Assembly (NCBI GenBank): GCA_021234155.1
Contig: JAJEKV010000025.1
Location: forward strand, 13,706,283 to 13,770,282
Source of the DNA: Isoetes taiwanensis
Taxonomy: Eukaryota; Streptophyta; Lycopodiopsida; Isoetales; Isoetaceae
DNA: 64,000 nucleotides
Direction: 5' to 3'
The position numbers and the translations under genes were made by a program. The stretch's first letter is position 1, and each line of letters begins with the position of its first letter. Below, piece by piece: positions 24,964 to 63,251 of the stretch. The notes under the pieces were generated by a model. That model was not told the DNA's origin, did not search any database, and saw nothing but the letters and a program-made list of their open reading frames with translations.

Positions 24964-25292
24964 GGGGCATGTTGAGCCCAGTGGCATGTTGGAGCCTAGA
25001 TGGTATGTTTGCCACCTTGGCATGTTAGAGCCTAGGTGGCATGCTGGAGGTCGCATGAGATGTTTGAGCCACCTTGGCATGTTGGAGCCTTGCGGCATGT
25101 TGAACCTATGGCGTGTTTCACACCTTATACCAAGGCGTGTCATGTCGGAGCCGGCTTGGCATGTTGAACCCACGTGGCATGTGTGAGCCTTCTTGGCATG
25201 TTGGAACCCATGCGTAGATGTTTGAGCCAATTCTGGCATGTTTGGGCCTAGGGTGGCATGTTGGTGGCATTGCCTGAGCTTATCTTGAGGGC
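24964..25292. repeat. 19-bp minisatellite, array 2
   Basis: Same GCATGTTKGAGCC-based repeat as 22466-22825, with more indels. Confidence 0.9.
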
Positions 25293-26558: not shown

Positions 26559-28036
26559 GCATCTTTTGGCTTGTTCTTTGATTTTGCTATGTGTTTGCAT
26601 GGCTGTTTCGTCTAACTTGCACCCTAGATTGGTTAACGCGTGAGGCATCTTTTCTAACCGGATTTTTACCATGGCAACCCCTTACATTAGTGAAATCCTC
26701 CGACAGGGGTTTCCATTTGTTTCTAACGCCTCGCCTATTTATCAGGATTTTTTATGCTTTTTGGTTGAAAATCGTAGCAGCTGTATATGTAAGCTTTTGA
26801 CCTGAATTTTTGCTTGTTGGTCCGCCATATCAAGTAAAAGTTTCCCGTGAAATTTGGCTAACGACAAGTGGCTACTGTTTTGCAATTCTAATGGTTTTTG
26901 TAATTTAGGTGGAATTTCATAATTGCACTTAATCATGGGCTAAGAAGTCCCGACGTTTTATTTATGCCAAAAACCCTATATGCAAGAAAAGAACAACCGC
27001 CATTCTTATAATGTCTCGACATGGATATACCACAAGAGTACTGTATATACATGACTCAAGATCCGGGATATATACAAGAGAATGCCATTCTATGCCAACT
27101 ATGCAATGCATCAGGGCTCTCGCAAATTAAATGCCAAGGAGGATATTCTATGACTAGGCTCAAGTAAAATATTAAATGCCAAGGAGTGATTTCCTAGCTT
27201 GTGATAAGTGTGCAAAAAGACTTCATGTAATTGTACCAAAATGAGGCATATAAATGACCAACAATATGCCTTAAATATTAAAATGCCAACTATGCAAATG
27301 TAATTAGGCTCCATTTCTATGCCAACTATGCAAATGTATCAGGCTCAGAATGTAATTAGCTCAAGTAAAATATTAAATGCCCACTTCTATGCAAAATGCG
27401 ACTAGCTCGCAAATATTAAATGCCCACTTTTAGACATGGCCACCCCGCAGGAAGAAGGCCAAGGAGGATTTTTTAGTTTGTGGATAATGCTGCAGTAAAG
27501 ACACGTGAATTACAATGCTCTATTGATCAGCCTATTGACTTAAAAACAATGCTCTATCGACTTAGGAGTGCCTTCTGGGTTACGTAAGAATGACATAGAA
27601 GGATGATACCGCTTAAGAGAGTGAACTCTGGTGTTATCAGCGAGGGCCCCTGCATAATCAAGCAAATTTGTTCCCAATATGGCCAATAATATTGCTCGGC
27701 CAAGGCTCAAACTAATAAAATGAATTCGCGTAATGCCAATTAGTAAAGATCCATTTTCATTCCTCCAGTGTTTTATGTGTTCTGGCCTCTTTATAAATAA
27801 AGCTGGGTGCAAGTGAAATGACTGGCAAGTTTCTTCGTTTCTCGCTAAAAAATACTGAAAGCTCTTAGCTGAGTGATCGAGGGCCTTCTTTAATTCCTTC
27901 TACGTGGGCGCAGCCGGAAATTGGCCGGCTAAAGACTCCAAATATAGAAAAGGTGCTCATTGTACACTATCTATTTAGGTGATGCCCCAAACATTATGCA
28001 AACCGGGTCCTACAAAGGTTAGGCATGACGAATGTA

Positions 28037-28394
28037 GGGGCATGTTTGGCTTCAGATGGCATGTTGCCTAGATGGCATATTTGAGCCACCTTGGCATGTT
28101 AGAGCTCTTAGGTGGCATGTTGGAAGCCGCATGGCATGTTCGAGCCACCTTGGTATGCGTTGGAGCCTCCAGGCATGTTGGAACCTAAGTGGCGCACAGC
28201 TACCTTGGCACCAAGGTGTCATGTTTGAGCCGCCTTGGCATGTTTGAACCTAGGTGGCATAAGTTGGAACCCACGTGGCATGTGTGTGGAGCCATCTTGG
28301 TATGTTGGAACCTATAAGTAAGATGTTTGGAGCCACCTTGGCATGTTTGGGTCTAGGTGGCATGTTGGTGGCATGTTTGAGCCATCTTGAGGGC
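28037..28394. repeat. 19-bp minisatellite, array 3
   Basis: Same repeat family as 22466-22825. Confidence 0.9.
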
Positions 28395-29755
28395 AACCTT
28401 GCTACCCCTTGGTCCCCTTGGTCCCTAGTGCCTATGTTATTTCCGGTGGTAGCTTCCGACCTTGCTATGTAGGCTTATCTCTCATGGATATGCCGGAATT
28501 TTTCACATGTTGCCGGCCTTCCATGTTTAAATTTCCATAACTTCTCAAAACAGAGCAATTAGTTACTAATTTATAATCATTTATCTTCAAAGAATCGCCA
28601 TTTAATTTATTATTATCATTCACATTCACAAAAATCATAAGTAATGCATCTTTTGGCTTTGTTCCTTTGATTTTTGCTATGTGTTTGCGTATTTGTTTCT
28701 TGGTCTAACTTGCACCCGAGATTTGTTGCAATGCGGAGGCGCCCTCTTTCTAACTGAATTTTTTACCATGGCAACCCCCTTTACATTAGGGGAACCTTTG
28801 ATTAGGTTTCCATTTGTTTCTAACGCCTCGCCTAATTTATCAGTGATTTTTATGCTTTTGGTTGAAAATCGTGTAAGTATTGCATATATATATGTGTTTT
28901 GGACCTGAATTTTTGCATGTTGGTCCGCCATATCATAAAAGTTTCGTGAATTTACAATCCATTAAATGGCTAATGTTTTGCAATTAGTTGCATCTGAATG
29001 GGTTTTTTGCAATTTAGTGAATTTCGCTAATTGCACTTAATCATGGCCAAGAACTCCCGAATCAGCTCTTTATTTATGCCAAAGAACCCCTATATGCAAT
29101 GAAAAGAACAAACTCCGCCATTCTTATAAAACAGAAATGCCCTGGGCTTGCTTTCATTGCCTTATAAAATTTTTCAAAGAAGATTCGTAAATGAAATGCA
29201 TAGTTCTCAAGCACCAAATAAACTCGAAAGCAATAGATGCATATGTGGTGTCTTGTGCCAAAGAAATGCTATTTGTGTCTAAATCCAAACTTTTATCATG
29301 TACGCTTGTTGTCTCAATTGCTTTGCCATTCTAATGGTATAGAATGCCAACTATGCAAATGCATCAGGGCTCAAGAACATAAAATGCCCAAGGAGGATTT
29401 CCTAGCTTTGTGCAGAAAAGACTTTAAGTAATTGCGCTCAAAATGAGGCATATAAATGACCTCAACAATATGCTCTCAGAAATATTAAATGCCAACTATG
29501 CAATGCATCAGGGTTCGCAATTGCACTAGGCAGACTAGGCTCTGCAAATATTAAATGCCTACTTCTATGCAAATGCACTAGGCTCGCAGTCATTAAATGC
29601 CCACTTTTAGACATGGCCACCCTGCAGGAAGAAGGCCAAGGAGGATTTTTAGCTTGTGATATGCGGCAAAAAAGACACGGAATTACAATCATGCTCTAAG
29701 TATCACTCCGCCTATTGACTTAAAATAATGCTCTATTGACTTAGGAGTGCCTCTA

Positions 29756-30114: not shown

Positions 30115-30557
30115 GGTTACGTAAGAATGACATAGAAGGATGACAAATGGGGTTTAAGAGAGTGAACTCATGCTATCACAGGGCCCCTGTGACACCGCTA
30201 AATTTGTTTCCAATATGGCCAATATTGCTCACCAAGGTTTCCAAACTAATAAAATGACCAAGTGTAATTTAATTATGCAAAGATCCATTTCTGTCCTCCA
30301 TAAGCCATGTTCATCCTCCAACAACAAAGCGCCGTAAGTAAGAAAATGACTCTATGGAAGTTTCTTCTGCCGGTTAAAATACTCTTAATGAGTGAACGAG
30401 GCCTCTAATCTCTTCACATGGGCGCAATGAAGGCTCTATTAAAGACCAAATATTGTAAAAGAAGGTGTCGACAAAGACTATCTACAAAGAAAAAGGATGC
30501 CCCAGGAACGCTATGCAAACCGGGGTCCTACAAAGTCTTAGGCAGTGGATTTAATGT

Positions 30558-30895
30558 AGGGGCATGTTGAGCCTAGGTGGCATGTCAAGTTTCAGATGGT
30601 GAAGGTTTGAGCCACCTTGCATGTTATTTCAGGTGGCATGTTGAGGCCTATGGTATGCTCTGAGCCACCTTGGCATGTTGGTTTTGGTGGCATGTTGAAC
30701 CTAAGTGGCGTGCTTGGGCCACCTTGGCGTTCTCGCTGTCATGTTTGAGTCAGCTTCTGGCATGTTGGAACCCACGCGGGTATGTGTGAGCCTTCTTGGC
30801 ATGTTGAACCCATGCGCATGTTTGGAGCTACCTTGGCATGTTTGGCCTAGGTGGCATGTTGGTGGCATGTTTGAGCTATCCTTGAGGGCAACCTT
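30558..30895. repeat. 19-bp minisatellite, array 4
   Basis: Same repeat family as 22466-22825. Confidence 0.9.
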
Positions 30896-32167: not shown

Positions 32168-33616
32168 GCATCTTTTGGCTTTGTTCTTTGATTTCTGCTA
32201 TGTGTTTGCATATTTGTTTTGGTCTAACTTTGCACCTCGAGATTTGTTGCACGCGGAGGCATCTTTTCTAACTGATTTTTACTATAGCAACCTCTACATT
32301 AGTGGAACCTCTCATTAGGTTTCCATTTGTTTCTAACGCCTCGGGTTTACACGTGGATTTTTATGCTTTTTGTGTTGAAAAATCGTGAAGTATCAGATAT
32401 GTAAAGCTTTGGACCTGAATTTTGCTTGTTGGATTCAGCTTGGTATCAAGTAAAAGTTTCAGGAAATTTGGCTAACGACAAGTGGCTAATGTTTTGGTAA
32501 TTCTAATGGTTTTTGTAATTTAGGTAATTTCTTCTTAATTGCACTTCTAATCATGGCCAAGAAGTCCTCGATCAGCCTTATTTATGCCAAAACCCCTATA
32601 TGCAAGAAAGAACAAACCGCCATTCTTATAATGTCCGACATGGATATACCCACAAATATACTCTGGCTATAACATGACGGCATCCGATATATACAAGAGA
32701 AGCTATCTCTATGCCAACTATGCAAATGCACTAGGGCTCTCAAATATTAAATGCCAAGGAGGATATTCTATGACTAGGGCTCGCGAAATATTAAATGCCA
32801 AGGAGATTTCCTAAATTGTGATATGTGCAAAGATCATAATTGCAGCCCAAAATGAGGCATAAATGACCAACAATATGCTCTCAAGAAATATTAAATGCCA
32901 ACTATGCATCGCATCAGGCTCCATTTCTATGCCAACTATGCAAATGCATCAGGCTCACATCGCATCAGGCTCGCAAATATTAAATGCCTACTTCTATGCA
33001 AATGTAATTAGGCTCGCAAAATACAAATGCCCACTTCTTTGTGACATGGCCACCCTGCAGAAGAAGGCCATGAGGATTTTAGCTTGTGATACTGCGCGTA
33101 AAGACACGGAGAATTATAATGCTCTATTGACTCTATTATTCTAAAACAATGCTCTATTGACTTAGGAGTGCCTCAAGTTACGTATTGAATGACATAGAGG
33201 CTGATGATAAATTGCTTAAGAGAGGAACTCTGGCGCTATCGCCAGGGCCCCCAGAATCGCTAAATTTGTTCCCAATATGGCCAATATTGCTCGGGCCGTT
33301 TCAAACTACTAAATGAATTGTAGAAATGCTAATTATGCAAAGATTCATTTCGTCTTCCTCCATAAGCCATGCGTTCGACCCTCCAACAAAGCCAAGTAAG
33401 AAAATGACTCTATGGAAGTTTCTTCAAGCCGCTAAAATATTGAGCTCTTAATGAGTGAACGTGAGGCCTTCTAATCTCTTCACATGTATGAATGAATGTC
33501 GCATAAAGACTAAATACGTAAAAGAAGGTGTCGCATAAAGACTATTCCATAAGAAAAAAGAGAGTTCTCAACGTTATGCAACCGGGTCCTACAGTCTTTG
33601 TATGTGATTTAATGTA

Positions 33617-33962
33617 GGGGCACAAGCTGGAGCCTAGGGGTGGCATGTTGGAGCCTGTGATGGCATGTTTTGGAGCTACCTTGGCATGTTAGAGCCTAGG
33701 GTGGCATGTTGGAGGTCACATGGTATGTTTGGAGCCACCTTGGCATGTTGGAGCCTCGTGGCATGTTGGAACCTAAGTGGCGTGCTTGGGGCCACCTTGG
33801 CAACAAGCGTGTCATGTTTGGAGTCAGCTCTTGGCATGTTGGAACCCACTGGCATGTGTGAGCCTCTCTTGGCATGTTGGAACCCATGCGGTGATGTTTG
33901 AGCCACCTTGGCATGTTTGGGCTTATAGGTGCTGTTGGTGGCATGTTTACCACCTGAGGGCA
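33617..33962. repeat. 19-bp minisatellite, array 5
   Basis: Same repeat family as 22466-22825. Confidence 0.9.
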
Positions 33963-35477
33963 ACCCATACCCCTTGGCCCCTCGTCCCTAGCGCCATGTT
34001 GCCTCCCCGTAGCTTCGACCTTGCTATGTAGGCTTATCTCTCATATGATATGCTGGAATTTTTTCACATGTTGCTGCCTCCATGGCTAAATTTCCATAAC
34101 TTCTAAACAGAGCAATTAGTTACTAATTTATAATCATTTATCTTCGTAAAGCAATCGCCATTTACCTGTTGCTTATCATTCTATCTGTAAAAATCATAAG
34201 CAATGCATCTTTTTGGCTTTGTTCTTTTGATTTTTGCTATGTGTTTGCATATTTGTTTCTTGGTCTAACTTTGCACTCCGAGATTTGCTGCATCGCATGC
34301 CTTTTCTAACCGGATTTTTTACTACGGCAACCTCCTTACATTACTTGAACCTCCGGGATAGGTTTCCATTTGTAATTTAGGTGGAATTTCTCGCTTAATT
34401 ACCCTAATCATGGCCAAGAAGTCCTGATCAGCCTTTATTTATGCTAAAAACCCTATATGCAAGAAAAAGAATAACCTAATTCTTATAAATGTAAAATGTC
34501 CCGCTTGTTTTTGCTTGTCTTATAAAAATTTTTCAAAGGAGATCTCAGAATGAAATGCATAGTTTACGCAGCATCTCATACAAACTCGAGCAATAGATGC
34601 ATATGCGGAAGTCTTGGTGCGAAATGCTATCGCAGTCTAAATCCAAACTTTTATCATGTACCTGCTGTCGCTCCTCAACACGGCTTGCCATTCTCATGTA
34701 TAGAATGCCAACTATGCAAATGCAACTAGACTAGGGCTCGCAAATATTAAATGCCAAGGAGGATTTTCTAGCTTGTGATAAGCGTGCAGAAAGATTCTGC
34801 TAATTATGGCCCAAAATGAGGCATAAATGACCAACAATATGCTCAGAAATATTAAATGCCAACTATGCAATGCATCAGCTCTCATGAATGCATTGAAGTG
34901 CATTCTTTAGGGCTCAAGAATATTAAATGCCCACTTTATGCAGGTAATGTAATTAGGCTCTCGCAAATATTAAATGCCCACTTTTAGACATGGGCTACCT
35001 CAGAGAGGAAGAAGGCCAAAGAGGATTTTTTAGCTTTTGTGATACGCTGCGTAAAGACACGGAATTACAATGATCTATTGACTCACTATTGACTTAAAAA
35101 CAATGCCTATTGACTTAGGAGTGCATCTAAGCATGTAAGAATGACATAGAAGGATGACAAATGGGCTTAAGAGAGTGAACTTCATGCTATCGCGAGGCCT
35201 GCATAATCCGCTAAATTTGTTCCTAATATGGCCAATATTAATTACCGCTGCTCAAACTAATAAAATGAATCTCGCACGTTAATTATGCAAAGATCCATTT
35301 CTGTCCTCCAAGGCCATGCGTTCTACCTTATAACAAAGCGCCGTAAGTAAGAAAATGACTTATGGAAGCTTCTTTCAAGTCAAGCAAACACTGGAAGCTC
35401 TTAATTTCAGAGTGATCGTGAGGCCTCTAATCTCTTCAATGCGGGCTTAATGAATGCCCATTAAAGACCAAATATAG

Positions 35478-36995
35478 AATATGTAGCATAATAACAAAAG
35501 GGTTTTCTTTGTGTTTTTGTACGCTTTTCACTAAGGTTTTCCTATGATTTCGTGATGTATCTCAAATGGATGTACTTAATGCACATCTAGAGTGTGCACT
35601 TACTTTCCTCGAGCCATTGATTTTAGCCCTTTTTTCAATGGTCAACAACCAATGGCTCTACAAATAAAAGCTCCTTTTGTATGCGGTGGTATAATGGTCA
35701 ATAACCAATGGCTCACAACAAAGCCCTCTTTTTGTGTGTGTGGTATAATGGGCACATGAAGGGCTTGAAGGGCGATGTTGTGCAAGCTTCCCCACCTGCT
35801 AAATACACATTTCTTATCATAACAAGGATCCAGAGCTTGCTTTAGATGATTTTTATTATGTTTGGAAAGTTTCTTCCTAGATCGCTTTTGATAGTGTATG
35901 ATATGGATATGTTTGTTAAGTTATCTATGCTAAACAAATACAATTTCGCAAATACGGTTTGCAGGCTTTCACATCCTACCACCATTAATGTGATTGCACT
36001 ATTGGGCCGAATTTGTTGCCGTAAAAATTACTACGCATTTTAGATTTGAGGCGCTTTTATTAAGCAAATTCCAAGGCTTCTAGATCTTTGTGCTAACAAG
36101 GTAAAAGTTTCCTCTACTCTTGGCTTCTCACCACAAGAATCCAGAGGCCAAAGGTCACTGCTTAAATTCCGGGGCTTGAAAATGTTTGTGTATGGGCGCT
36201 GCAAACTCTTTACCACTTTCGCATAATGATCAATCCGCCTATCTTTATTGTAACTTTTACTTCTCTTATGTTCTATTTGTTTTATTGTGATGAAATCTCA
36301 AAAAGTTACAGTATTTAGAAAGCCTCAAATGAATTTCTAGTTTTTTTCTCGTTTGAATTCTAAAATTTTTGTCACAATCGGGATGTCCCTAAGGCCCCTG
36401 GCGGCCAAAAAATTTTTTTGCAACACAAACCATTAACATCCAAATATATAAAATTAAATCCCCTTAACATATCAATTAACATTATTAATTATTGATTATT
36501 AACAACCAACACATAACTACCATTGACATTAATTAATGCCAACCATTAGGTCCAACACATTTAAATTAAAATCCCTTAAACCCCTTTTGGTTTGGGTGCA
36601 TATTCACACGGGGTGACGTAGGGCGAAATGGTGAGCCCTCATAATTGTATTTGCACGCATAAAATCAAGACCATATAGTATTCCGCTTGAAATCTTATAG
36701 TATGGCGTAATCTTGTTATACAAGATAGCAAATTTTGTACTGCATACCCCACAAACGGTGAACTTTACGCATGGTAGATTAAGAAATAAGGTGTGAATAT
36801 GCCTATCCAATGTACTCGCTAGTTCTGTGAGTCACCCCCGCGTGAATATGCACCCAAACCAAAGGGGTTTAAGGGGATTTTAATTTAAATGCTTGGACCT
36901 AATGGTTGTGTTAATTAATGTCAATGGTAGTTATGTGTTGGTTGTTAATGTCCATGGTTGTTATGTGTTGGGGGATTTAATTTTATATGTTGGCT
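35478..36995. mobile_element. Partial element X with foldback end
   Basis: Starts with the X left end (TATGTAGCATAATAAC) inside module U, just after ACCAAATATAGAA, and returns to module U at about 36996. The first ~300 bp and the 36415-36830 part match X; the middle does not. The right side (about 36838-36995) is an inverted copy of 36421-36618. Confidence 0.55.
36421..36995. repeat. Large inverted repeat (foldback)
   Basis: Left arm about 36421-36618, right arm about 36838-36995, separated by about 220 bp. The arms share CCCAAACCAAAAGGGGTTTA-type and TAACTACCATTGACATTAAT-type text in opposite orientation with few mismatches. A transcript across it would fold into a long hairpin. Confidence 0.75.
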
Positions 36996-38689
36996 GCCCA
37001 TTAAAAAAAGAGATGCCCTCTAACTATGCAACCGGGTCCTACAAAGTGTTAGGGCAGATTTAATGTGGGGCATGCTTGAGCTCTAGATGGTACGTTGGAG
37101 CCTACACAAGGCACCCAAAACTTTTAACCACTATAATAAACCACTGATAAACCACTATAGATGGATTTTTTTATAATAAAAATTTCATTCTAATAAAAGC
37201 CACATAACATAGTGGTTTTTATAACTAGTAATGGTTATTGATGTTGATTTTTGTTATAGCTATTTTCAAAACCAAAAATTAGTTTATTTTGTGGTTTCTA
37301 ACATCAACTAAGGGTCATTCATGTTGGTTTTCTAATGTACCATGGTTATTAATTCGACATTGGTTTGTAGTATATGGTTTTTCAAACACCATTTTAAATA
37401 TGATAATGGTTGTTTATGTTGGTTTCTTCGCTGACACAAAAGTTAGAAGTACTTTATGGTGTGGTTTTTAAATCCAATATAAATGCCATGGTGAAGGTCT
37501 ATGCTAATTTTCTATTATCACAAAATTTTATTTTATAAAATGGTTGTGGTTTGTAGCATACTTTAATGCCGAAGCTAATGCCTGGTGATTGTTCATAACA
37601 TTTAAAAGATGTGGCTATCCGTAGTACAAAACCAACATAGAATTGAATTGAATGTTTTTTATCGTCCACGGAGACCAATCATATAGTAGTGCAGTTTTGC
37701 ATCTATATTAAGTAAGGTTTATATCATGGTTTTCATTTTTCAATACCAATTTATTATCCCATGGCCAAGTATGTATTGAGAAGTAAAATATCATGCTATA
37801 ACGATCTTTGAAAGATGGGAATTATTCCCGAGATTACTTTCTCATTAACTAAATTGATTTTTATCATCTATAATATCCAAATTATTTATGAGGTTTAATA
37901 CAAGCACTTCGTACAAGGACAATCATAAGCATGCAAACCAATAATATAGTTTCTTGAAATTTATTCAATTAAAATTAAAGGACATGTTTTATTATAATTC
38001 TTTCTTGAAGAAAGTAAAAAATATATATTACCACTCCAAGGGCCAATTTAGAGTGCAAGTGCCAAAAGGATGCCTGTCTTAGAGGTTACCATAATATAAC
38101 AAAAATAGCACAAAATATAGCTAAGAATCACACACATGGAGGGACTTACACCAAACTTACACCTCTGCGACGAAAAGATTACAAATGGGCACTAATTATA
38201 CTCAAATCGCTCCCCTATGCATGCATATTAGTCCATCCGATACATTGGGGACTCATACCTCCCAACATGCACTGTAAAAAACCATAGCGTTTGAACAATC
38301 ATGCGGGCTTGGTCCCTAGATAATGATGGGAAAAAAAAAACTACAAGCTAAGAAACCGTTGATTTGAGAACACGTGGGATTTGAACCTGTTGCATTATTG
38401 CCCCATGTTCTCTGCCCAAAGGAGAGATGGGTGCTGCGATCGTTGACCATGGGATTCCCACTTTTGAATTTCTCCCTTAATCAATAATCAAAATTTCCCA
38501 CTTTAAAAGACCAACCAAAGTCAACAAGATTATGGTTCTAGCTGTATGATTCAACATCAATATGGTTATTATATGACAAATCTGCATTGTCTGTGCTAAT
38601 CTACCCATGGTGGGGCCTTTGCATGTCTGATCCACCGTTTTGGCATGCCTACAAATATCATGTCTATTTCTTCAACCATGGATGCTTTT

Positions 38690-38870
38690 CAACGAAGATT
38701 GGTCTCCAAAATTGACGCATCCATCCACTGCTCTCCATCGATATGCACCTTTGATCTTATCTCTACAAGAGCTGCAATGATCGATGCAGCTCGTTTCCAC
38801 ACCTGTGCAACAAAAGGAGAAATTGCTACACATAGTGGTGGTTTATTACTGTCCAAAAACAAGATATAAG
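38690..38870 (-). pseudogene. Possible captured exon, unknown gene
   Basis: On the minus strand a short open frame after a TTGCACAG acceptor-like site contains VWKRAASIIAALVEI and IDGEQWMDAS and then stops. Its composition looks like real protein. It lies inside the CACTA-like element and may be a second captured fragment. No family recognised. Confidence 0.3.
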
Positions 38871-39660
38871 AGAAAATAAAAAAGGAAAAGAAAATCTAGT
38901 ATCAATTTATCAATTTTGATATATGAGGGTGCACCTTCCCAAAACAAAGAAAGAAAACATGAACGGATCGCAAAAAATACTTCCTGCAAGGTCTATACCT
39001 TCACCTAGAGGGCAAAATATAACTGGAAAGGGAATCCTTGGGGGTAATAAGCATGAGAATTCCCTTAAGAGAAATATGCCAGGTGGACTCGTATCTCCAC
39101 TTTACAAAACCATAGGCCGAGATAATGAAAAAAATTACCATGATAATGAAAAACATTACCATGTACCTAAAGCTTAAAAACAATTTATCCATCCTTTGTT
39201 TTCCTTGATTCATTAGGGAATTAAGGAGAGAGGAATCATTATAGAGAGCGGCAGTTAATGAGATTTGTGTGTAACAGCTGCCCTCTGGTAGAGACCCCCT
39301 ACACTTTTTTGTTTCTTGCTTGCATGGCGGCCGGCTAGCCTGGATACAAAGTTTTTTTTTCTTCTTAGAATGTATGGCGCATACCGCTTGCCGGAATGCA
39401 TGGTCGATGCTATGGCATGGCGCCTTGCTATTGTTCCTATAAAATATCTGTAGCTTGGTTTCTGATTTTTTGGTGTAGCTTGGTTTCTGATTTTTTGGCG
39501 TCAATGGAGCGCATAAGCTTGGTGATGGCATATTCAAAGGCGCTGGCCTTTAACTGGCAACCCATTTGAGAGCTGGAGTTGGGACCGGCAACCTCTATTA
39601 CGAAGGTAACTTAGCCTCTGCTACTCTATTCCTCTCTTCATTCTAGCTCTAAAACAATCC

Positions 39661-40335
39661 GTTACACAGGACCGTCTGCATTTTTGGCATCTATGGGGCT
39701 GGAAACGAAATCAATGGAGCGGATCCAGCAATGTTTTTTCTGCAAATGGCTATAAGAGCGACAAGTCTCACCTCTGGCAAATATGCCCTGCTCCAAAACT
39801 TGACCGCAAACCAACTTATTTGTGGGGTGCTTGAAGCTACTCCAAACTGTGCATTTTTTAGATCCAAGGCTCCGTAGTCTATCAGCCACAATTGCTGTAC
39901 TCCTTTACCTTTTGTCCCAGTTTCCCAAACCGGATTGCCAGACTCGTTTCTCAAATCTAAATTGCCAGACTTTTCTAGTTTTAGAGTAGCATTCATTCCT
40001 ACTGTATTGCTTTTCGCTTGCCAAACAATGTCTACAACGTCATCCCCACCTTCATCCCATGCCACCACTGACAATCTGAACTGTCTATTGCCCACATCGC
40101 TCAAGAACACCAGTCTGTACTTGATTGTGGCATTAGTGCTCACCTCATAACCCCGAAAACCAAGCCCTGTTGGAAAGTACGTCCTGCCCTTGCTCAGAAC
40201 ATAATCCAGCCTAGATATCTTTGATTAGAGTAAGACGTTCTAGCAAACGTAACATTGGAAAAGGAGAGAAAGATCAAGAAATTGGCAAAGGAGAGCAAAA
40301 CTATGTTGGGCTTGCTAATTGAGCTGCAATTCGGC
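39661..40335 (-). pseudogene. G-type lectin (S-domain) receptor gene fragment
   Basis: Corresponds to the N-terminal ~220 residues of a G-type lectin receptor-like protein, normally a plasma-membrane protein with an extracellular mannose-binding-lectin-like domain. A hydrophobic signal-like stretch (about 40316-40240, VLLSFANFLIFLSFS) leads into the B_lectin domain, with LSKGRTYFPTGLGF, VVDIVWQAKSNT, NATLKLEKSGNLDL and GNPVWETGT. After a shift come CTVWSSFKHPT and GQVLEQG. Two frameshifts are visible: one near 40211 and one at a six-T run (39854-39859), where a single-base change restores the VWSSF frame. No S-locus, PAN or kinase domains follow and no start ATG is seen. It is a captured fragment inside the CACTA-like element, not a complete gene. 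Confidence 0.8.
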
Positions 40336-41851
40336 CACCAGGTTCTCCTTACTACTGTTGCTATTTAGTTCTTCCCTTTTATTTTCTTTACAATTATAAC
40401 CTAACTCTTTTATACTACAGAAGCATACGAAGGAAATTTAGAGGCATACGAAGGAAATTTAGCCTTCCTGTGAAACTACACCTCTGGAAAATGGAAGCTC
40501 AGGCTGGTTATGGCAAGTACCTTCCAACTCTAGCTGTGTTTGCTATGCCATTCATGTAGCTACTGTTTTTATGCAGACTCCCTTTGCAGCAAATCTTGGT
40601 CCAGACTAGGAATGATGTTTTGCAGCTTGCGGTCAAAAAGTGCCATTAGAACATTCGTTTCTTGAAACTCAACCATCGAAAACAATCAGGTAGTATTAGA
40701 GGTTTTTTCTGAAAACTAAAGGAGATCCAACATAGCTTGAGAAGTATACCTCCAACATAGCTTGAGAAAAATAGCTTTGCAATCTTTCTGCTACAAGGTA
40801 TGTGAGTTTATATGCTTTTATGTGTCAGATCTTGGTACAATTTATAGGAGCCTTCATAGACATTAAAGTAAGAAGTTATATTTTCATACTTTATTGCATC
40901 ACCGGACGGTAGAGGTGATTGGTTTAAGCTGCATTAATGTTTCTGTTATTTATGTACTTAAATACAAGTGCAAAGTCAATGCTTTCTTTCTCTAAGATGT
41001 TTCTATCTGAATTTGTTTTGATATTTATGTACAAGTGCAAGGTTGGTCTTTATGTAAGATATCTGAATTTGTCTTGTATTTCTGAAAATAGATTTATCAC
41101 TGTTTATGAGTTCTCTGTTTATGAGTTCTGGAAATGGTTGGGGTTCAAATCCCCTTGCTCCCTGAAAGCATACATATTGACATAGGCCTAATAAGTACAG
41201 TGACACATAAAAGAAACCATCCACATTCTTTAATAGTTTTAATAGTTTGTTAAATACTCTTGAAATGCTTTAAACAACAAAACATTACTCCTTAATATAT
41301 TTTAGTTAAATAAAAATGAAATGGTTTAAACAACAAAGTGTTACTGGTTCTCATCATTGGTTTATAAATGGTAACCATGAGGATAATGCATAACAAAACC
41401 ATGCACATTTGGAATAAACTATTACTAATGATCATAGTAATTTGAATCTAACACATTGCGAACCATGTGCATTTACCATGACAATTAGCCATGCTAGTTC
41501 ACCACAATAACCAACCACACTATAGAAGCACATGAATAGAGCAGCATATTAAACCACATTCACACCATCATGTTATACCATAGGGACAAACCATACCCTT
41601 AAAACACTATAATATACCACATAAATTTACCAATATGCTATACCACTTTGACAAACTCTACAAGGAAGCCATAGCAATTACCATACCATAACACCACTCT
41701 AACAAACCTTACAAAAGAACCCACTAGTTTAGCCTCATATGGTTTTTAATGATATCAACCCACAAACATGTATTGGTTCTGTCGAATGGTTTTCTAGTCA
41801 CAACCATGGGAAAAACCATGTAGTGTTTTAATTTTGGGTGCCTTGTGCTAG

Positions 41852-42158
41852 ATGGCATGTTTGAGCCACCTTAGCATGTTAGAGCCTAGGTGGCATGTTG
41901 GAGGCCGCATGGCATGTTCGAGCCATCTTGGCATGTTGGAGCCTTGGTGGCATGTTGGAACCTAAGTGACGTGCTTGGGCCACCTCGGCAGCCTGCGTGT
42001 CATGTTTGAGCTGCCTTGGTATATTTGAACCTAGGTGGCATGTTGGAACCCACGTGGCATGTGTGAGCCATCTTGGCATGTTGGAACCCATGCGGCATGT
42101 TTGAGCCATCTTGGCATGTTTGGGCCTAGGTGGCATGTTTGAGCCACCTTGGAGGGCA
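41852..42158. repeat. 19-bp minisatellite, array 6
   Basis: Clean version of the repeat. Its first copies lie on the other side of the CACTA-like insertion at about 37070-37104. Confidence 0.95.
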
Positions 42159-43955
42159 ACCTTGCTACTCCCCTTGGCCCCCTTGGTCCCTAGTGCCATG
42201 TTGCCTCTGGTAGCTTCGACCTTGCTATGTAGGCTTATCTCTGTTATGATATGCTGGAATTTTTTTCACATGTTGCTGCCTCCATGTTTAAATTTCCATA
42301 ACTTTCTGAAACAGAGCAATTAGTTACTAATTTATAATCATTTATCTTCAAAGAATCAGTTACGAATTTATTATTATCATTCACATTCAAAAAATCATAA
42401 GTAATGCATCTTTTGGCTTTGTTCTTTGATTTTTGCTATGTGTTTGCATATTTGTTTCTTGGTCTAACTTGCACCTGAGATTTGTTGCACGTGAGGCGTC
42501 TTTTCTAACTGGATTTTTTACCATGGCAACCCCTACATTAATGGAACCTTTGATTAGGTTTCCATTTGTTCCTAACGCTCTGTCTATTTACTGTGATTTT
42601 TTATGCTTTTTTGGTTGAAAAATCATAAGTATTGCATATGTAAGCTTTTGGACCTGAATTTTTGCTTGTTGGTCTGCCATATCAAGTAAAAGTTTCAGGA
42701 AATTTGGCTAACGACAAGTGGCTAATGTTTTGCAATTAGTTGCATTCTAATGGTTTTTTGCAATTTAGGTGGAATTTCTGCTTAATTGCACTTAATCATG
42801 GCCAAGAAGTCCTGGATCAGCCTTATTTATGCCAAAAAACCCCTATATGCAAGAAAGAACAAACTGCCATTCTTCTAAACAGAAAATGTCCGGTTTGCTT
42901 TGCTGTCTTATACAATTTTTCAAAGAAGATTCAGAAATGAAATGCATAGTTTTGCTTACCCGAGGCGCTGAAACTCGAGCAATAGATGCATATGCGGAAG
43001 TCTTGGTGCCAGCAAATGCTATCGCAGGTCTAAATCCAAACTTTTTATCATGTACAGTTGCTGTCTCAACACAGCGTTTTGCCATTCTGATGGTATAAAA
43101 TGCCAACTATGCAACAGACTAGACTAGGGCTCTGCAAATATTAAATGCCAAGGAGGATTTCCTAGCTTGTGATAAGCGTGCAGAAAGACTTGCGAATTGC
43201 GGCCCAAAATGAGGCATAAATGACCAACAATATGCTCTGCAAATATTAAATGCCAATGCAAATGATTAGGGGCTCGCAATGCACTAGGGCGCACTAGGCT
43301 CTGCAAATATTAAATGCCCACTTCTATGCAACAGACTAGGCTTTGCAAATATTAAATGCCCACTTCTTTAGACATGGCCACCTCAGAGGAAGAAGGCCAA
43401 GGAGGATTTTTTAGCTTGTGATACGCGTGCAGAAAGACACGTGAATTACAATGCTCTATTGACTCAGTCTATTGACTTAAAACCAATGCTCTATTGACTT
43501 AGGAGTGCCTCTAAGTTACAGAAGAATGACATAGAAGGATGACAGCTGGCTTAAGAGAGTGAACTCTTGGCGTTATCGCGAGGGCCCTGTACAATCTGCT
43601 AAATTTGTTCCCAATATGGCCAATATTGCTCTGCTGCGTTCAAACTAATAAATGAATTGCAGAATGCTAATTATGCAAAGATCCATTTCGTCCTCCATAA
43701 GCCATGTTCGGTCTTATAACAAAGCGCGTAAGTAAGAAAATGACTCTATGGAAGTTTCTTCAAGCTGGCTAAAATACTGAGCTCTTAATGAGTGATCGTA
43801 GGCCTTCTGATCTCTTCACGTGGGCGCAATGAATGTCGACAATGACCACATACAGAAAAGAAGGTGTCGACAAAGACTATCTACAGGAAAAAGAGATGCC
43901 CTCTAATGTTATGCAAACTGGGGTCCTACAAAGTGTTAGGCATGATTTAATGTAG

Positions 43956-44290
43956 GGGCATGTTTGAGCCTAGATGGCATGTTGGAGCCTAGATGGCATG
44001 TTTGAGCCACCTTGTCATGTTAGAGCCTAGGTGGCATGTTCGAGCCACCTTGGCATGTTGGAGCCTTGGTGGCATGTTGGAACCTAAGTGGCGTGCTTGG
44101 GCCACCTTGGCAGCCTGCGTGTCATGTTTGAGCTGCCTTGGCATGTTTGAACCTAGGTGGCATGTTGGAACCCACGTGGCATGTGTGAGCCATCTTGGCA
44201 TGTTGGAACCCATGCGGCATGTTTGAGACACCTTGGCATGTTTGGGCCTAGGTGGCATGTTGGTGGCATGTTTGAGCCATCTTGGAGGGC
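43956..44290. repeat. 19-bp minisatellite, array 7
   Basis: Clean version; units alternate between GCCACCTTG and GCCTAGGTG/ACCCACGTG endings. Confidence 0.95.
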
Positions 44291-45608
44291 AACCTTGCTA
44301 CCCCCCTTGGCCCCCTTGGTCCCTAGTGCCATGTTGCCTCTGGTAGCTTCGACCTTGCTATGTAGGCTGGAATGTTTTTCACATGTTGCTGCCTCCATGT
44401 TTAAATTTCCATAACTTTCTGAAACAGAGCAATTAATTACTAATTTATAATCATTTATCTTCAAAGAATCAGTTACGAATTTATTACTATCATTCACATT
44501 CAAAAAATCATAAGTAATGCATCTTTTGGCTTTGTTCTTTGATTTTTGCTATGTGTTTGCATATTTGTTTCCGTGAGGCGTCTTTTCTAACTGGATTTTT
44601 TACCATGGCAACCCCTACATTAATGGAACCTTTGATTAGGTTTCCATTTGTTCCTAACGCTCTGTCTATTTACTGTGATTTTTTATGCTTTTTTGGTTGA
44701 AAAATCATAAGTATTGCATATGTAAGCTTTTGGACCTGAATTTTTGCTTGTTGGTCTGCCATATCAAGTAAAAGTTTCAGGAAATTTGGCTAACGACAAG
44801 TGGCTAATGTTTTGCAATTAGTTGCGTTCTAATGGTTTTTTGCACTTTAGGTGGAATTCCTGCTTAATTGCACTTAATCATGGCCAAGAAGTCCTGGATC
44901 AGCCTTATTTATGCCAAAAAACCCCTATATGCAAGAAAGAACAAACTGCCATTCTTCTAAACAGAAAATGTCCGGTTTGCTTTGCTGTCTTATAAAATTT
45001 TTCAAAGAAGATTCAGAAATGAAATGCATAGTTCTGCTTACCCGAGGCGCTGAAACTCGAGCAATAGATGCATATGCGGAAGTCTTGGTGCCAGCAAATG
45101 TTATCGCAGGTCTAAATCCAAACTTTTTATCATGTACAGTTGCTGTCTCAACACAGCGTTTTGCCATTCTGATGGTATAAAATGCCAACTATGCAACAGA
45201 CTAGACTAGGGCTCTGCAAATATTAAATGCCAAGGAGGATTTCCTAGCTTGTGATAAGCGTGCAGAAAGACTTGCGAATTGCGGCCCAAAATGAGGCATA
45301 AATGACCAACAATATGCTCTGCAAATATTAAATGCCAACTATGCAACAGACTAGGCAGACTAGGCTCTGCAAATATTAAATGCCCACTTCTATGCAACAG
45401 ACTAGGCTCTGCAAATATTAAATGCCCACTTCTTTAGACATGGCCACCTCAGAGGAAGAAGGCCTTGCAAGGAGGATTTTTTAGCTTGTGATATGCGTGC
45501 AAAAAGACATGTGAATTACAATGCTCTATTGACTCAGTCTATTGACTTAAAAACAATGCTCTATTGACTTAGGAGTGCCTCTACAGAAGAAGAAGAATGA
45601 CATAGCTT

Positions 45609-46286: not shown

Positions 46287-47626
46287 ATGGCAAGCCCAGT
46301 GCTGGTATTTGCAGCCATAGCTAGCCTGCTGGCACTTGGGGTTACGGCATTCAACGTGTCAGAGATCAAACCGCTAGGTAAGTCTAAAAGTGTGGTTAGA
46401 TAGAGCAAAGTTGAAGAATGTTATAACATTTCAATTGGTTTGTTTGTTGCAGAGGGAGAAGGTTGTATGGTGGTCTCAAACGCCTGCTTTCCTGATTTAT
46501 TGTACAGGGGATTTGGAGTGCCCCCTTATTTGTGCCCGGACGGGTTCGAAAAGGATGGGCAGACGCAGAAGTGTTTCAGCCGCTGCAATGTTAGTTACAG
46601 TGGAGTGGGAGATCAGTGCGTTTCGAACTGCCCTCCCGGATTTTCCACCACCGGAGATTTCTGCACCAAAATGTGGGCCAAAGGCTGCTGTTGCACCGGA
46701 TGCTGTAATGGCTGCCCCGACGGATCTAAAGACGTTGGTTGTTTCTGCGCTCAATCCATCGATCGCCATAACTATTCTCGTGGCACCCCATCAGCCATGG
46801 TCTGCGCTGGAGGACAGGTAAAAGTCGTTTTCTTCACAATGCATAGAATTATTATAAGATTGCTAGGTAGATGGTATTTTTACGTCAATTGTCAATCGTC
46901 AATTGATTAATTTCTAGATCAATTTGTCAATTGTCAATTTCTAGACTAAGAAAGATCGATCAATTATTAGTTAGTGACTACTCTAGACTAAGAAAAATCA
47001 ATCAATCAATTATTAGTTAGTGACTGACTTCCACACCATACCACTTAGCGCCATCCTATTACTTAGTAGCTTATATCCTTATCCACTTCGCAGCATCCCT
47101 TAGGACATATGACGACGCTTACCACATATGGCGACTATGATATAGACTCATCATGCTTTTTTTTTTGTCACAGGATTTGGATTCGTATGACGAATTATGC
47201 TACCCCGAATGCCCCAGTGGGTACATTGGAATGGGCCCAATGTGCTGGAGAGAGATTCACAAAACCCATGTTAAGTGTAGTCCATTTCTATATGCCACGG
47301 AGGACATCACATGTGACACGGTGAAGAAACACCTCTCCATAAAGGAAGGATTGCAAAATGGCTGTCTTGCTGCTTTGTTTGGATCTACAGTATTACCAGT
47401 GCTGACCATGGAGGAGGCTGCAAGGATTTGCAAGAATAATATGCTCCAAGGTGCGAATGCCATCAATACGATTATGCAACTGACCAATGCTAAAACCTGC
47501 AACCCAAATGCTACTACAATATGTCTCATGCAAACTTCTAATATTGGAAACATCCGAAGTATCACTGGAAGCACCGGAAGTTCAACCCAACCAACCACTG
47601 AAAGTAGTAGTGCTACCGAAAAGTAG
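46287..47626 (+). CDS. Cysteine-rich secreted protein, intact three-exon gene
   Basis: Exons 46287-46377, 46453-46817 and 47174-47626, joined by GT-AG introns of 75 and 356 bp (phase 1 and phase 0), give 302 residues. Residues 1-21 are a signal peptide (hydrophobic VLVFAAIASLLALGV, likely cleavage after VTA). Exon 2 encodes four modules of C-x3-C-P-x-G type (CPDGFEKDG, CNVSYSGVGDQC, CPPGFSTTGDFC, CCNGCPDG) with a CCC/CC cluster. Exon 3 opens with a fifth (CYPECPSGYIGMGPMCW), followed by a part with spaced cysteines and a Ser/Thr-rich tail (SSTQPTTESSS). The start is chosen because it gives the signal peptide and lies 57 bp after a TATA box. It is probably an extracellular, disulfide-rich protein. 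I do not recognise the family by name and assign no function; defence or cell-wall roles would be guesses. Confidence 0.85.
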
Positions 47627-47731
47627 CAGTTTCACCTAAACCCAACAAGTCACTAGAGACTTTGACAGGAGTGTTAGCGCCAACACTATCCTTGACGTAT
47701 TTCATTCGGTCTCATATGACTTGGGATCTAT

Positions 47732-47737
47732 AATAAA
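47732..47737 (+). terminator. Polyadenylation signal 1
   Basis: AATAAA, 106 bp after the stop codon of the intact gene; conserved in nearly all copies. Confidence 0.6.
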
Positions 47738-47779
47738 CATCTACTCAATATCTATGTTATTTAGTCGTTTGGGACCTAT

Positions 47780-47785
47780 AATAAA
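47780..47785 (+). terminator. Polyadenylation signal 2
   Basis: Second AATAAA in a near-repeat of the first context (GGGAYCTATAATAAACATCT). Confidence 0.55.
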
Positions 47786-49320
47786 CATCTACTCATATCG
47801 ATTTTACTTAGTCACGATCGTCATGCCTTGCAAATGTTAAATCAAATGGTGTATGTATGCTGTATTTTTTGGAAAGACGTGTTTTAAACATACAAGAAAT
47901 TTATCGCGGCGGCCAGGCCGTCGCGAACATTTCTTCAGTTCTAAACCTGTGGGGTTGAACCCACTATTAACGTCCAACCTCGTGTCAGCAATTTATGTAG
48001 CAATTCATGTATTTGTAGTTGTGTCGAGTTGTATTAACATTCAATCTAGTGTCAGCAATTTATGTAGCAATTCACGTATCTGTAGTTGTGGAGTTGCAGG
48101 TATTTCGCTTAAGAGACTAGAATAGAAGATGAAATAGTATTTTAACGTCCACTTGAGAATTAGTTAGTTACACAATTGGAGGCAATACGAGACAATTGAA
48201 CTGACCTGATGCCGGGACAATATCTTGTTCTAGCTCTAATTAGCTACTCTCAACTGGCCGATTGGTAACTTAGGTAATGCATATACTGTCTCTCTGCAAC
48301 TTAAGTAATACTCCACGTGAATCTAAGCAGACATCTCATCAAATGTATTTACGTTTTGCTTCATTATTGAAACTGGATCAAATGGCAAATACATTCTCTA
48401 TATTGAAAAAAAATGACGCATGAAGCCTCATTCTCTACATTCTCTCACACAAAGTTGTATCACACTTTTACAATACATATGCTTAGTAAGCAATGTCAGA
48501 TGGAATGCTCTGCACTAACCTAGAGCATGCAAGCTAATGGAGAAGACAAGTCACTTCCACACTCACATCTCCACTCTCCTACAACAAAGGAACTATCCAT
48601 ATTACTTGTCTTGGTAACACTATGGCACTGGTCCTTAGCAGGGCGTCTCGTTAATTTTTAAGACCACATTTCGCAATGATTTGATAAGATTTATATTGGC
48701 ATATCTAAGAAGCTTCTTAGCTTAAGATTACTAATATTGACACCCAAGTTTTATGATGAGAAGATGATTTGCGGGGGTTGTTTGAGTTTCCGTTGCAAGC
48801 CAGAATAAACTGTTGCATATCAATATATGGATTTGTATGACTAAAACTTTCTCATAAAAGATTTAGAAGATTGGAAATAAAGAGGTTAGCATCTTTGTCT
48901 TGCCCTCGAATGGCTAGAACGTGAGTCTGAAAAGTGGCAAGTTCTATCTCCATAATTATCAACTTCTCCTTTCACCTCTTAGCTAAAAGAATTTTGCATT
49001 TGATAACAAATGTGCATATTTGACAAAGGCCAATCAAGTTTCCTATAAAATTTTAAATATTCAGCATGAATATGTGTCTATTATAAAAGAGGATCTACAT
49101 GTTGCAGCCTCGAAAAATGTCCTTTATGGTTTTACAAACGCTTTTTTTGTTCAAACTTGCTTAGGAGTCGCCATGATTGACACCGGAGTGATTTTCTTAG
49201 GAGGTGAATATTGCTACACTCAGGTAGGAAGAATGATAGAAAGAACGGTAGGAAAAATAGTAGGAAGATGGGTAGGAAGAACGCCTGAATTAGTTGACCT
49301 TATCACATGGCAATTTATCT

Positions 49321-50490
49321 AATTTTCTATGAATTTTTGCCTAGAATAGATAAACCATCATTCAATTAAATTGGGATTATGTCTTAATTTTGGGACAAAT
49401 TTCATATTGCATGTTTTTAGTAGCATATTCAAATTCACACATTGCATTCATTCAAAAATTGAAAAATTAAAAATAGATAGACAAAATTATGATGTCAAAG
49501 ACAATGCAAGCACCATATCATAAAAAATTTGGATAACAAAAATCTACATTGAGTTATTCAACTTTTTCTTCTAATTCCATTTGATTTTTTCTTTAAATAG
49601 CCTTCTTGCATTTACATCTTGAGGTTTCATTTGTTCCCCAACACTTTCTATTTAGCTGGAATTCTGTTTGGAGTCCATACATACAAAATTTTTTTAGTGG
49701 AGCCAAGGCAATTTGATCACTGGATATTCATACCCCATCTTTTGTCCAACAACTTTGCTCAGAAATATTTCTTGATCCGAAAAAGGAAAAATGTGTTTCA
49801 TGCACCACCATTCCACCACTAGAATGATTTAATAAATACCTTCAATTTGCAAATATCAGAGATAGTGAACCCCATGTTCACCGGTTATATATCTAAAATC
49901 TGATCACGGCATCCATTACAACAAATTGGTGGCATTCAAACATAAGAAGATTTCTTTAATCCATAAGAAGAAGGAGAACAATGCACCTTAAAAGCATCTC
50001 CATCTTTAACATTTAGAATTGGTTTGTTTGTTGCAGGGAGAAGGTAAATATTTTGGACATAAAATCCAACTAATAAAATTATCATTCATTTATTGACCTA
50101 CGGTGGATTTATAATGCACCCTTATTTGAATGATTCTTCTTCATTTGGACATGGCCAAAAGGATGGACATGGACGCTATGTGATTCTCCACATCTAATGT
50201 TATTAACTCTGGAACAGGAGACGTTTTGACAATTCATCAAAACCTTCGGATGAAGAAGAATACCTTATGCAATCAGAGTTTGATGCTTTCCATAGATCCG
50301 ATGAAGATCATCAAATAAAACAACAAAAACCATCTAAAACTATCTCGACTACTATAGCTAAAGCTTTGATGAGCGACGAGCAGCCTTTCAAGGGTTCCGA
50401 AGCCAGCTATGGCGGCAAAAGAAGAAGTAGTGCAGTTTTTTTACATCGGTGTTTGGACTTCATAATTGTAGCATTTTAATAGTTGTGGCT
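49321..50490. repeat. Blended T/Y segment, then clean end of Y
   Basis: About 49395-50235 alternates every 10-40 bp between text of module T and text of element Y. From about 50235 it is clean Y, including the 50267-50479 open frame (EEYLMQSEFDAFHRSDEDHQ). Best explained as a consensus artefact. Confidence 0.7.
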
Positions 50491-51515
50491 TAGTTGTATG
50501 ACTATAGCATGTATTGTTATGAATGTTACTTAGTCACGATCGTCATGCCTTGCAAATGTTAAATCAAATGGTGTATGTATGCTGTATTTTTTGGAAAGAC
50601 ATGTTTTAAACATAAAAGAAATTTATCGCGGCAGCCAAGACCGTCGCGAACATTTCTTCAGTTCTAAACCTGTGGGGTTGAACCCACTATTAACGTCCAA
50701 CCTCGTGTCAGCACATTATGTAGCAATTCATGTATTTGTAGTTGTGGAGTTGTATTAACATTCAATCTAGTGTCAGCAATTTATGTAGCAATTCACGTAT
50801 CTGTAGTTGTGGAGTTGCAGGTATTTCACTTAAGAGACTAGAATAGAAAATGAAATAGTATTTTAACGTCCACTTGAGAATTAGTTGGTTACACAATTGG
50901 AGGCAATACGAGACAATTGAACTGACCTGATGCCGGGACAATAGCTTGTTCTAGCTCTAATTAGCTACTCTCAACTGGCCGATTGGTAACTTAGGTAACG
51001 CATATACTATCTCTCTGCAACTTAAGTAACATTCCACGTGAATCTAAGCAGACATCTCATCAAATGTGTTTACGTTTTGCTTCATTATTGAAACTGGATC
51101 AACTGGCAAATACATTCTCTGTATTGAAAAAAAATGACGCACGAAGCCTCATAGACAAAGTTGTATCACACTTTTACAATACATTTGCTTAGTAAGCAAT
51201 GTCAGATGGAATGCTCTGCACTAACCTAGAGCACGCAAGCTAATGGAGAAAACAAGTCACTTCCGCACTCACATCTCCACTCTCCTGCAACAAAAGAACT
51301 ATCCATATTACTTGTCTTGGTAACACTATGGCACTGGTCCTTAGCAGGGCGTCTTGTTAATTTTTAAGACCACATTTCGCAATGATTTCATAAGATTTAT
51401 ATTGGCATATCTAAGAAGCAACTTAACTTAAGAGTACTAATATTGACACCCAGGTTTTATGGTGAGAAGATGATTTGCGGGGGTTGTTTGAGTTTCCGTT
51501 GCAAGCCAGAATAAA
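50491..51515 (+). repeat. Partial 3' module, clean
   Basis: Nearly identical to the centre of 47627-49320; ends at GTTGCATATC, where module U begins. Same ends as 20625-21650. Confidence 0.8.
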
Positions 51516-52476
51516 CTGTTGCATATCGTGCTTGTGATAAGCGTGCAGAAAGAGTTGCAAATTGCGGCCCAAAATGAGGCATAAATGACCAACAATATGC
51601 TCTGCAAATATTAAATGCCAACTATGCAACAGACTAGGCTCTGCAACAGACTAGGCAGACTAGGCTCTGCAAATATTAAATGCCCACTTCTATGCAACAG
51701 ACTAGGCTCTGCAAATATTAAATGCCCACTTCTTTAGACATGGCCACCTCAGAGGAAGAAGGCCAAGGAGGATTTTTTAGCTTGTGATACGCGTGCAGAA
51801 AGACACGTGAATTACAATGCTCTATTGACTCAGTCTATTGACTTAAAAACAATGCTCTATTGACTTAGGAGTGCCTCTAAGTTCTAAGAATGACAGAATG
51901 ACATAGAAGGATGAACACGAAAAGTGGCTTAAGAGAGTGAACTCTTCTCATTTTTCTTTTCATTAAAACTAGTAAAAAAGTCCAAAATAAAAGTCAAGGA
52001 CGTGTTAATATTTAAAGGTAAGATAAATATAATGCTATCTAAGCCCAAAATTTATATAAAAGTTCTAAATTTGTTCCCAATATGGCCAATATTTTAAGTA
52101 GGTAATTTTTTAGTCACTAAATAATAAGGTTCAAACTAATAAATGATTTGGCTTTGAGAGTGAATGCTAATTATGCAAAGATCCATTTCGTCCTCCATAA
52201 GCCATGTTATATTGGCCAAGGCTCAAAAAATAACAAAGCGTAAAGTGCAAAGAAAATGACTCTATGGAAGTTTCTTCAAAAGAAAATGACTCTAAAATGC
52301 TCTTAATGAGCTCTTAATGAGTGTAGGCCTTCTATGGAGAAGACAAGTCAATGAATGTCGACAAAGACCAAATATAGAAAAGAAGGTGTCGACAAAGACT
52401 ATCTACAGGAAAAAGAGATGCCCTCTAACATTATGCAAACTGGGGTCCTACAAAGTGTTAGGCATGATTTAATGTA

Positions 52477-52832
52477 GGGGCATGTTTGAGCCTAGATGGC
52501 ATGTTGGAGCCTAGATGGCATGTTTGAGCCACCTTGGCATGTTAGAGCCTAGGTGGCATGTTGGAAGCCGCATGGCATGTTCGAGCCACCTTGGTATGTT
52601 GGAGCCTTGGTGGCATGTTGGAACCTAAGTGGCGTGCTTGGGCCACCTTGGCAGCCTGCGTGTCATGTTTGAGCTGCCTTGGCATGTTTGAACCTAGGTG
52701 GCATGTTGGAACCCACGTGGCATGTGTGAGCCATCTTGGCATGTTGGAACCCATGCGGCATGTTTGAGCCACCTTGGCATGTTTGGGCCTAGGTGGCATG
52801 TTGGTGGCATGTTTGAGCCATCTTGGAGGGCA
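52477..52832. repeat. 19-bp minisatellite, array 8
   Basis: Best-preserved array: about 17 consecutive 19-bp units, with one longer unit (GCAGCCTGCGTGTCATG) in the middle. Confidence 0.95.
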
Positions 52833-55205: not shown

Positions 55206-55500
55206 CAACCTTGCTACCCCCCTTGGCCCCCTTGGTCCCTAGTGCCATGTTGCCTCTGGTAGCTTCGACCTTGCTATGTAGGCTTATCTCTGTTATGATA
55301 TGCTGGAATTTTTTTCACATGTTGCTGCCTCCATGGCTAAATTTCCATAACTTTCTGAAACAGAGCAATTAGTTACTAATTTATAATCATTTATCTTCAA
55401 AGAATCAGTTACGAATTTATTATTATCATTCACATTCAAAAATTCATAAGTAATTCATCTTTTGGCTTTGTTCTTTGATTTTTGCTATGTGTTATCTATG

Positions 55501-63243: not shown

Positions 63244-63251
63244 TCCTATGA

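Follow-up and report, generated by a model that had tools for sequence, protein, structure and literature searches.

A 64,000-nucleotide stretch of the lycophyte Isoetes taiwanensis (GenBank assembly GCA_021234155.1, contig JAJEKV010000025.1, positions 13,706,283 to 13,770,282 of the forward strand; hereafter the window, in whose coordinates positions are given unless a contig is named) harbours a CACTA-like transposable element of 4743 base pairs (bp) whose middle holds part of a lectin receptor kinase gene. We consider it likely that this is a non-autonomous CACTA-like transposon of a high-copy family, which settled in a unit of a tandem array and, before or after doing so, gained the gene fragment through the repair of a break, the fragment having decayed since. 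Because sister copies of the element retain the pre-capture spot, the event can be followed at single-base resolution, with its ends, its target site duplication, the empty host site, the family, the pre-capture sequence, the joints and the frameshifts all open to direct observation. The features on which the argument draws are the following.

37105-41847, no strand: whole element, 4743 bp, CACTA-like (ends, duplication, related elements)
37105-37120, plus strand: left terminal inverted repeat, CACAAGGCACCCAAAA (inverted-repeat and pattern search)
41832-41847, minus strand: right terminal inverted repeat, a perfect copy of the left (inverted-repeat and pattern search)
37102-37104: target site duplication CTA, left copy (sequence read and family comparison)
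41848-41850: target site duplication CTA, right copy (sequence read and family comparison)
37121-37600: left subterminal region, dense in AACCAC / TGGTT repeats (word count)
41355-41831: right subterminal region, with AACCAC / TGGTT repeats as on the left (word count)
39785-40300, minus strand: captured part of a lectin receptor kinase gene, which takes in the leader and the B_lectin domain and ends shortly beyond the latter, with two frameshifting deletions (genome searches, gene and sister alignments)
39784..39785: capture joint 1, sister sequence to 39784 and lectin homology from 39785, no shared bases
40298..40301: capture joint 2, lectin homology to about 40298 and sister sequence again from 40301
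38640-38900: stretch around a proposed second exon, a component common to lectin-free sisters, not lectin
36990-37104: left host flank, a unit of the 19-bp array
41851-42160: right host flank, 19-bp array, which joined to the left flank matches 8 sister units

The preliminary description of this DNA had reported 16-bp ends, a CTA duplication and an empty site in sister repeats, and all three are borne out. The termini are perfect 16-bp inverted repeats, and a search of the window with the end pattern at up to 3 mismatches returned 2 matches, both of them the outer ends and each with 0 mismatches, a number that is not significant on its own at this tolerance, since 14 of 100 shuffles also reach 2. 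Words of the ACCA/TGGT type crowd the two 350-bp ends of the element, where 35 were counted against a mean of 5.3 and a maximum of 13 in 2000 single-base shuffles; the interior holds 7.5 per 700 bp. No transposase domain was found in the 8 open reading frame (ORF) stretches scanned inside the element. When the two host flanks are joined with a single CTA, they match 8 sister array units of the window across the junction, at 52410-52834 (92%, the best), 54805-55209 (88%), 43888-44293 (84%), 22395-22827 (84%), 27981-28397 (81%), 33554-33964 (79%), 24922-25262 (80%) and 30511-30860 (78%). Among the three junction alignments inspected, those at 52410 and 54805 are ungapped there, and that at 43888 has an adjacent 20-bp gap, as expected for an array with a variable number of 19-bp repeats. 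Since the joined flanks match sister units across the junction, the element was inserted into one unit of a pre-existing array.

The ends are shared with a large family. Across the assembly searched (1,658,258,908 bases in 1110 contigs), the end sequence has 1517 + 1501 (3,018) matches at no more than 1 mismatch, compared with 15 + 11 (26) for a reversed control, so that the search for other copies suggested in the preliminary description met with some 3,000 matches; we estimate the number of complete elements at about 1,500 or fewer. Most of the 30 end loci that were read fall into two kinds, left ends resembling AATTTAACCACTATAAT and right ends resembling TTAAAACACTACATGG; some vary, L002, L018 and L029 among them, and L008 is a poor fit to either kind. 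Eleven pairs of facing ends, 5 to 13 kilobases (kb) apart, were chosen among 100 exact sites listed, a wider pair on C362 being excluded, and identical 3-bp flanks were present in 9 of these 11 fetched elements. Together with the window element, the duplications amount to ten different triplets (TTC, TGA, GAG, TTA, ACA, TAT, AAT, AAG, AGT and CTA). Pairing by coordinates among 40 left-end and 40 right-end matches listed gives the window element and at least 25 others, 3.8-11.9 kb in length.

The capture itself is recorded in the sister elements, whose pre-capture sequence is the strongest evidence and lay outside what the preliminary description could see. A genome search with 39640-40400 returned at least 60 matches (40 of 63 candidates scored), and those listed comprise the window itself, 11 lectin-gene matches, all of them inside window positions 39785-40208, and 48 pieces of sister elements. 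These 48 pieces, which sit at 28 places, 19 of them with a match on both sides of the lectin piece, end at or before 39784 or begin at 40298-40318, and none overlaps into the lectin by more than about 3 bp. Of these 19, 13 were read across the joint, and in all 13 sisters 35-37 bp take the place of the window's 516 bp. At the left joint, sister sequence ...GGCAAATAT directly abuts lectin GCCCTGC; at the right joint, the letters AA stand between lectin ...GAGAGCAA and sister CTATGTTGGG, and the last 2 bp of 39785-40300 are possibly filler. No duplication was seen flanking the lectin piece. A small loss filled by copied DNA, with near-blunt joints, fits break repair with filler DNA better than it fits the fusion of tandem elements. 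The history that we envisage comprises two events, in either order. An element of a high-copy family with CACAAGGCACCC ends would have entered a unit of the tandem array and duplicated 3 bp there, its transposition being driven in trans by the CACTA-type transposase of another element. At some point on the element's own lineage, a break in the middle would have cost about 35 bp. Some 515 bp, copied from a gene or pseudogene for a B_lectin receptor kinase, would have closed the gap, the repair probably being of the end-joining or synthesis-based type with the gene serving as filler. The fragment would afterwards have decayed as a passenger, without a function.

The identity of the fragment is less evident from protein comparisons than from the genome. 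The B_lectin profile matches 39691-40224 on the minus strand with E = 5e-4, which is below Pfam's own cut-off, and a structure database search with the lectin ORF gave weak lectin matches only (best E 0.007). A genome search with 39785-40300, in contrast, had as its 15 candidates, all of them scored, the window, 11 lectin places (72-89% alike), one place that matches the leader (C1041:3231490) and two short matches, each about 60 bp long, and the whole lectin piece is covered by the window copy only. Two of the relatives, L047 (C966:1313195, 84%) and L049 (C1090:2082414, 77%), keep an open frame across the leader and B_lectin and on into a kinase domain, up to the end of the locus, so that homologues of the fragment combine B_lectin with a kinase domain; no S_locus_glycop or PAN domain was found in either at E <= 0.001. 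With DNA matches to 11 genome places, two of which are open through B_lectin into kinase, we regard the lectin origin as settled. At L075, a leader relic, gene homology reaches about 40298, and the leader looks by eye like a signal peptide. The preliminary description had recognised a signal-like and B_lectin portion of a receptor gene on the minus strand; its identity and strand hold, while its borders move from 39661-40335 to 39785-40300. An intact donor, for which the same description proposed to search, was approached in the form of these kinase-bearing relatives, the closest gene copy of all being C1041:3505239 (L046), 89% alike, whose 5' part is unrelated sequence. L046, which has this unrelated sequence upstream of the B_lectin region and downstream of it meets a stop ahead of any kinase, may itself be a truncated or rearranged pseudogene. 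Beside 10 of the 11 lectin places, compared over 1.5 kb on each side, there is no window-element sequence, the match being confined to the lectin. No intron interrupts the genes over the portion that was read, and DNA and RNA templates are therefore not distinguishable.

Several observations weigh against the history that we propose. The searches did not turn up the exact donor; the best assembled copy is 89% alike and has no leader, and we take the direct donor to be missing or unassembled. Two of the 11 paired elements are without a matching 3-bp flank. The capture is a single event, for which filler-DNA repair is a reading and not a proof, and the closest sisters differ between parts of the window element, whose history is therefore not that of one simple copy. 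Of the ORFs in related elements and at end loci, a selection of 30 (from L031-L044 and from the inward-facing sides of L001-L030) yielded no Transposase_21 match, and among the 150 Transposase_21 places and 182 ends listed, none lie less than 25 kb apart. The differing sisters could also speak for a capture by tandem fusion, in which two elements flanking a lectin gene are mobilised as one and lose their inner ends, the mechanism proposed for the Pack-CACTA elements of Arabidopsis and for other Pack-TYPE elements in the accessible parts of PMC8903248 and PMC13317346. We find this unlikely here. The window element is collinear with single sisters up to the lectin piece and again right after it in 13 of 13 cases, with only 35-37 bp missing, and the end pattern recurs nowhere in the window besides the outer termini when up to 3 mismatches are allowed. 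The fusion model, as far as the available text of PMC8903248 and PMC13317346 describes it, predicts traces other than those observed. Break repair within a single element remains the reading on which we build.

Transposons of the CACTA superfamily have terminal inverted repeats that begin with CACTA or CACTG, the motif that gave the superfamily its name, and a 3-bp target site duplication without fixed sequence, and their autonomous members encode a Transposase_21 (TNP2) transposase. The ends of the present family, CACAAGGCACCC, read CACAA and not CACTA, and the exact CACTAGG form occurs genome-wide only 3 + 4 = 7 times within the 1517 + 1501 CACAAGG-form matches; the CACTG form had no search of its own. 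The duplication, CTA in the window and likewise 3 bp in 9 of the 11 fetched elements, is of variable sequence, as in the superfamily, for which the accessible part of PMC8903248 states a target duplication of 5 nucleotides. Subterminal repeats spanning several hundred bp, which the available text of PMC8978399 describes for CACTA elements, are present in the window element in the form of the ACCA/TGGT words. Transposase_21 is common in the genome, with at least 167 matches (150 of 2310 candidates scored), and the closest place among those listed lies 25.7 kb from a family end (C908:10951829) and was not counted as linked. Measured against Pack-TYPE elements, the host fragment is present, no transposase domain appeared in the scanned ORFs, and the ends are not of the strict CACTA type. 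Because the CACTA end is absent and a transposase is not linked, we call the element CACTA-like on the sequence features of its CAC ends, 3-bp duplication and subterminal repeats, and do not file it as a member of the superfamily. The label CACTA-like, already used in the preliminary description, is retained for these features and qualified by the CACAA ends and the scarcity of the CACTAGG type.

That the element belongs to a different superfamily whose members duplicate 3 bp, PIF/Harbinger for example, is in our judgement rather improbable. Such a placement would accommodate the CACAA ends and the lack of a linked transposase, and TTA does occur among the duplications, once; the ten triplets are nevertheless all different, not mainly the TTA or TAA that PMC8903248, in its accessible part, gives for PIF elements, and the combination of CAC-initial ends with dense subterminal repeats is likewise at odds with it. 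One could also speculate, as a tentative proposal that we would not rate above a possibility, that the CACAAGG family constitutes a separate lycophyte branch of CACTA-like transposons, whose ends have drifted from CACTA and which acquires host DNA by break repair within the body of the element, not by fusion of neighbours. Were this true, the way in which the family captures DNA could be tested directly and at scale, since many sisters offer pre-capture sequence that can be read.

Within the lectin piece, the frame is broken by two deletions of 19 and 10 nucleotides. The changes on the window lineage are spread over codon positions 1, 2 and 3 as 7, 7 and 9 of 132, 132 and 133 sites, numbers that are small and to which those of the compared gene copies are not sharply different (11, 9 and 8 for L046; 11, 9 and 16 for L047). 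Such a flat pattern is as expected without constraint, and the fragment would then be a decaying passenger. That it instead acts on lectin receptor kinase genes as an antisense or small RNA, or contributes to a chimeric protein, strikes us as very improbable: its 72-89% likeness to 11 lectin-gene places would in principle permit some small-RNA pairing, but it is a single copy with frameshifts and with the flat codon-position pattern just described. Least credible of all, and with no supporting evidence found, is an ancestral lectin piece deleted in the sisters, since the 35-37-bp stretch is common to all 13 sisters read and mutually alike among them, the lectin homology stops exactly where sister sequence resumes, and no deeper-branching lectin-bearing element occurs among all 15 candidates scored.

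Changes unique to the window element number 5/198, 16/598 and 7/448 in three stretches near and to the right of the capture (28/1244 together), and 23/378 at the left end and 7/188 in the 38640-38900 stretch, where there are fewer sisters. The lectin lineage has 23/397, and part of the lectin divergence may therefore predate the capture. The host unit differs from the neighbouring unit at 24/1285 positions (1.9%) and from the unit at 52.8-54.2 kb at 55/1316 (4.2%). Capture and insertion both look fairly recent relative to the family; as the figures (about 1-6%) overlap, and as gene conversion among tandem units is possible, we claim no order for the two. The preliminary description had called the case datable, which holds loosely, in the form of these substitution figures, and does not extend to the order of events.

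A second lectin exon, which the same description had tentatively placed at 38690-38870, has to be rejected: this segment is part of the element family and is present in lectin-free sisters. All 23 candidates of a genome search with 38640-38900 were scored, which yielded 31 matches; apart from the window, 19 places contain the greater part of this segment. Eighteen of these lie within about 9 kb of listed family ends or flanks, and the 19th (C1110:6000) lies, by eye, about 15 kb from a right end; three short matches (C966:10327, C743 and C257) stand outside this comparison. Three of the 19 places were read (L035, L036 and L076), of which L076 (C907:18765500-18769500), considered as a candidate host gene for the stretch, proved to be another family element.

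Some family members contain other foreign sequence. Inside another family end, L010 (C30:226734-229749) has a match to RNA polymerase Rpb1 domain 5 on the minus strand at 60-707 (E 2e-7), a stretch which we take to resemble the plastid rpoC2 motif and which is perhaps captured plastid DNA. Foreign mobile elements lie within further members, with a hAT dimerisation domain in L035, Copia gag and integrase in L039, and reverse transcriptase, endonuclease and zf-RVT in L041/L042. As to the surroundings of the element, the window holds between 22465 and 55179 nine 19-bp minisatellite arrays (TGGCATGTTGGAGCC...), spaced at about 2 to 8.5 kb within larger repeat units. Directly to the left of the element, at 36500-36971, is a foldback with long inverted arms (37 bp at 100% and 56 bp at 91%), perhaps a small inverted-repeat transposon. 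Large diverged repeats occupy 1-21600, with a step of about 8.1 kb, and 46300-63260. Three ORFs (46404-46907, 47141-47623 and 60833-61300) code for cysteine-rich proteins, of which the second and third are similar, with no Pfam match at E <= 0.1.

How cut-and-paste transposons acquire pieces of genes is not settled, and the review PMC13317346, in its accessible part, allows for an undiscovered capture route besides the fusion of tandem copies. No paper on lycophyte CACTA elements was found in a literature search judged by titles, and the main text of PMC8566536, on the published Isoetes taiwanensis assembly, as far as available, mentions CACTA 0 times. In the present case, the capture spot can be read before and after the event in one assembly, from 13 pre-capture sisters, an empty host site and relatives of the gene. 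The event is real, well resolved and ordinary in kind; what sets it apart is an unusually clear before-and-after record, and the ends of the family are unusual. The capture route is not decided by a single case, yet it could be by a lycophyte family whose ends have about 3,000 matches.

CACTA elements with pieces of host genes include Bot1 of Brassica, with an S-locus-associated gene, and Tgm of soybean; they resemble the window element in this respect and differ from it in their ends, hosts and captured genes. That CACTA elements capture genes, as the preliminary description had stated, is also borne out by the available portions of PMC8903248, PMC13317346 and PMC8978399. The CACTA-like elements of Chenopodium (PMC8978399, accessible part) similarly combine short, apparently nonfunctional host fragments with subterminal repeats. 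Their fragments lie upstream of a conserved domain called 'TAD', taken as transposase-associated, and no such domain was found in the window element, for which, unlike the Chenopodium elements as presented in that part of the source, the pre-capture sequence is available. A close parallel is offered by the Pack-CACTA elements of Arabidopsis, rice and maize, which, according to the available text of PMC8903248, are likewise non-autonomous, without transposase, and bounded by short CAC-initial repeats around a host fragment. Their ends are CACTACAA, however, where those of the window element are CACAAGG, and unlike them the window element bears its piece mid-element, exchanged for about 35 bp of an otherwise collinear element with no signs of fusion, and has a lycophyte as its host.

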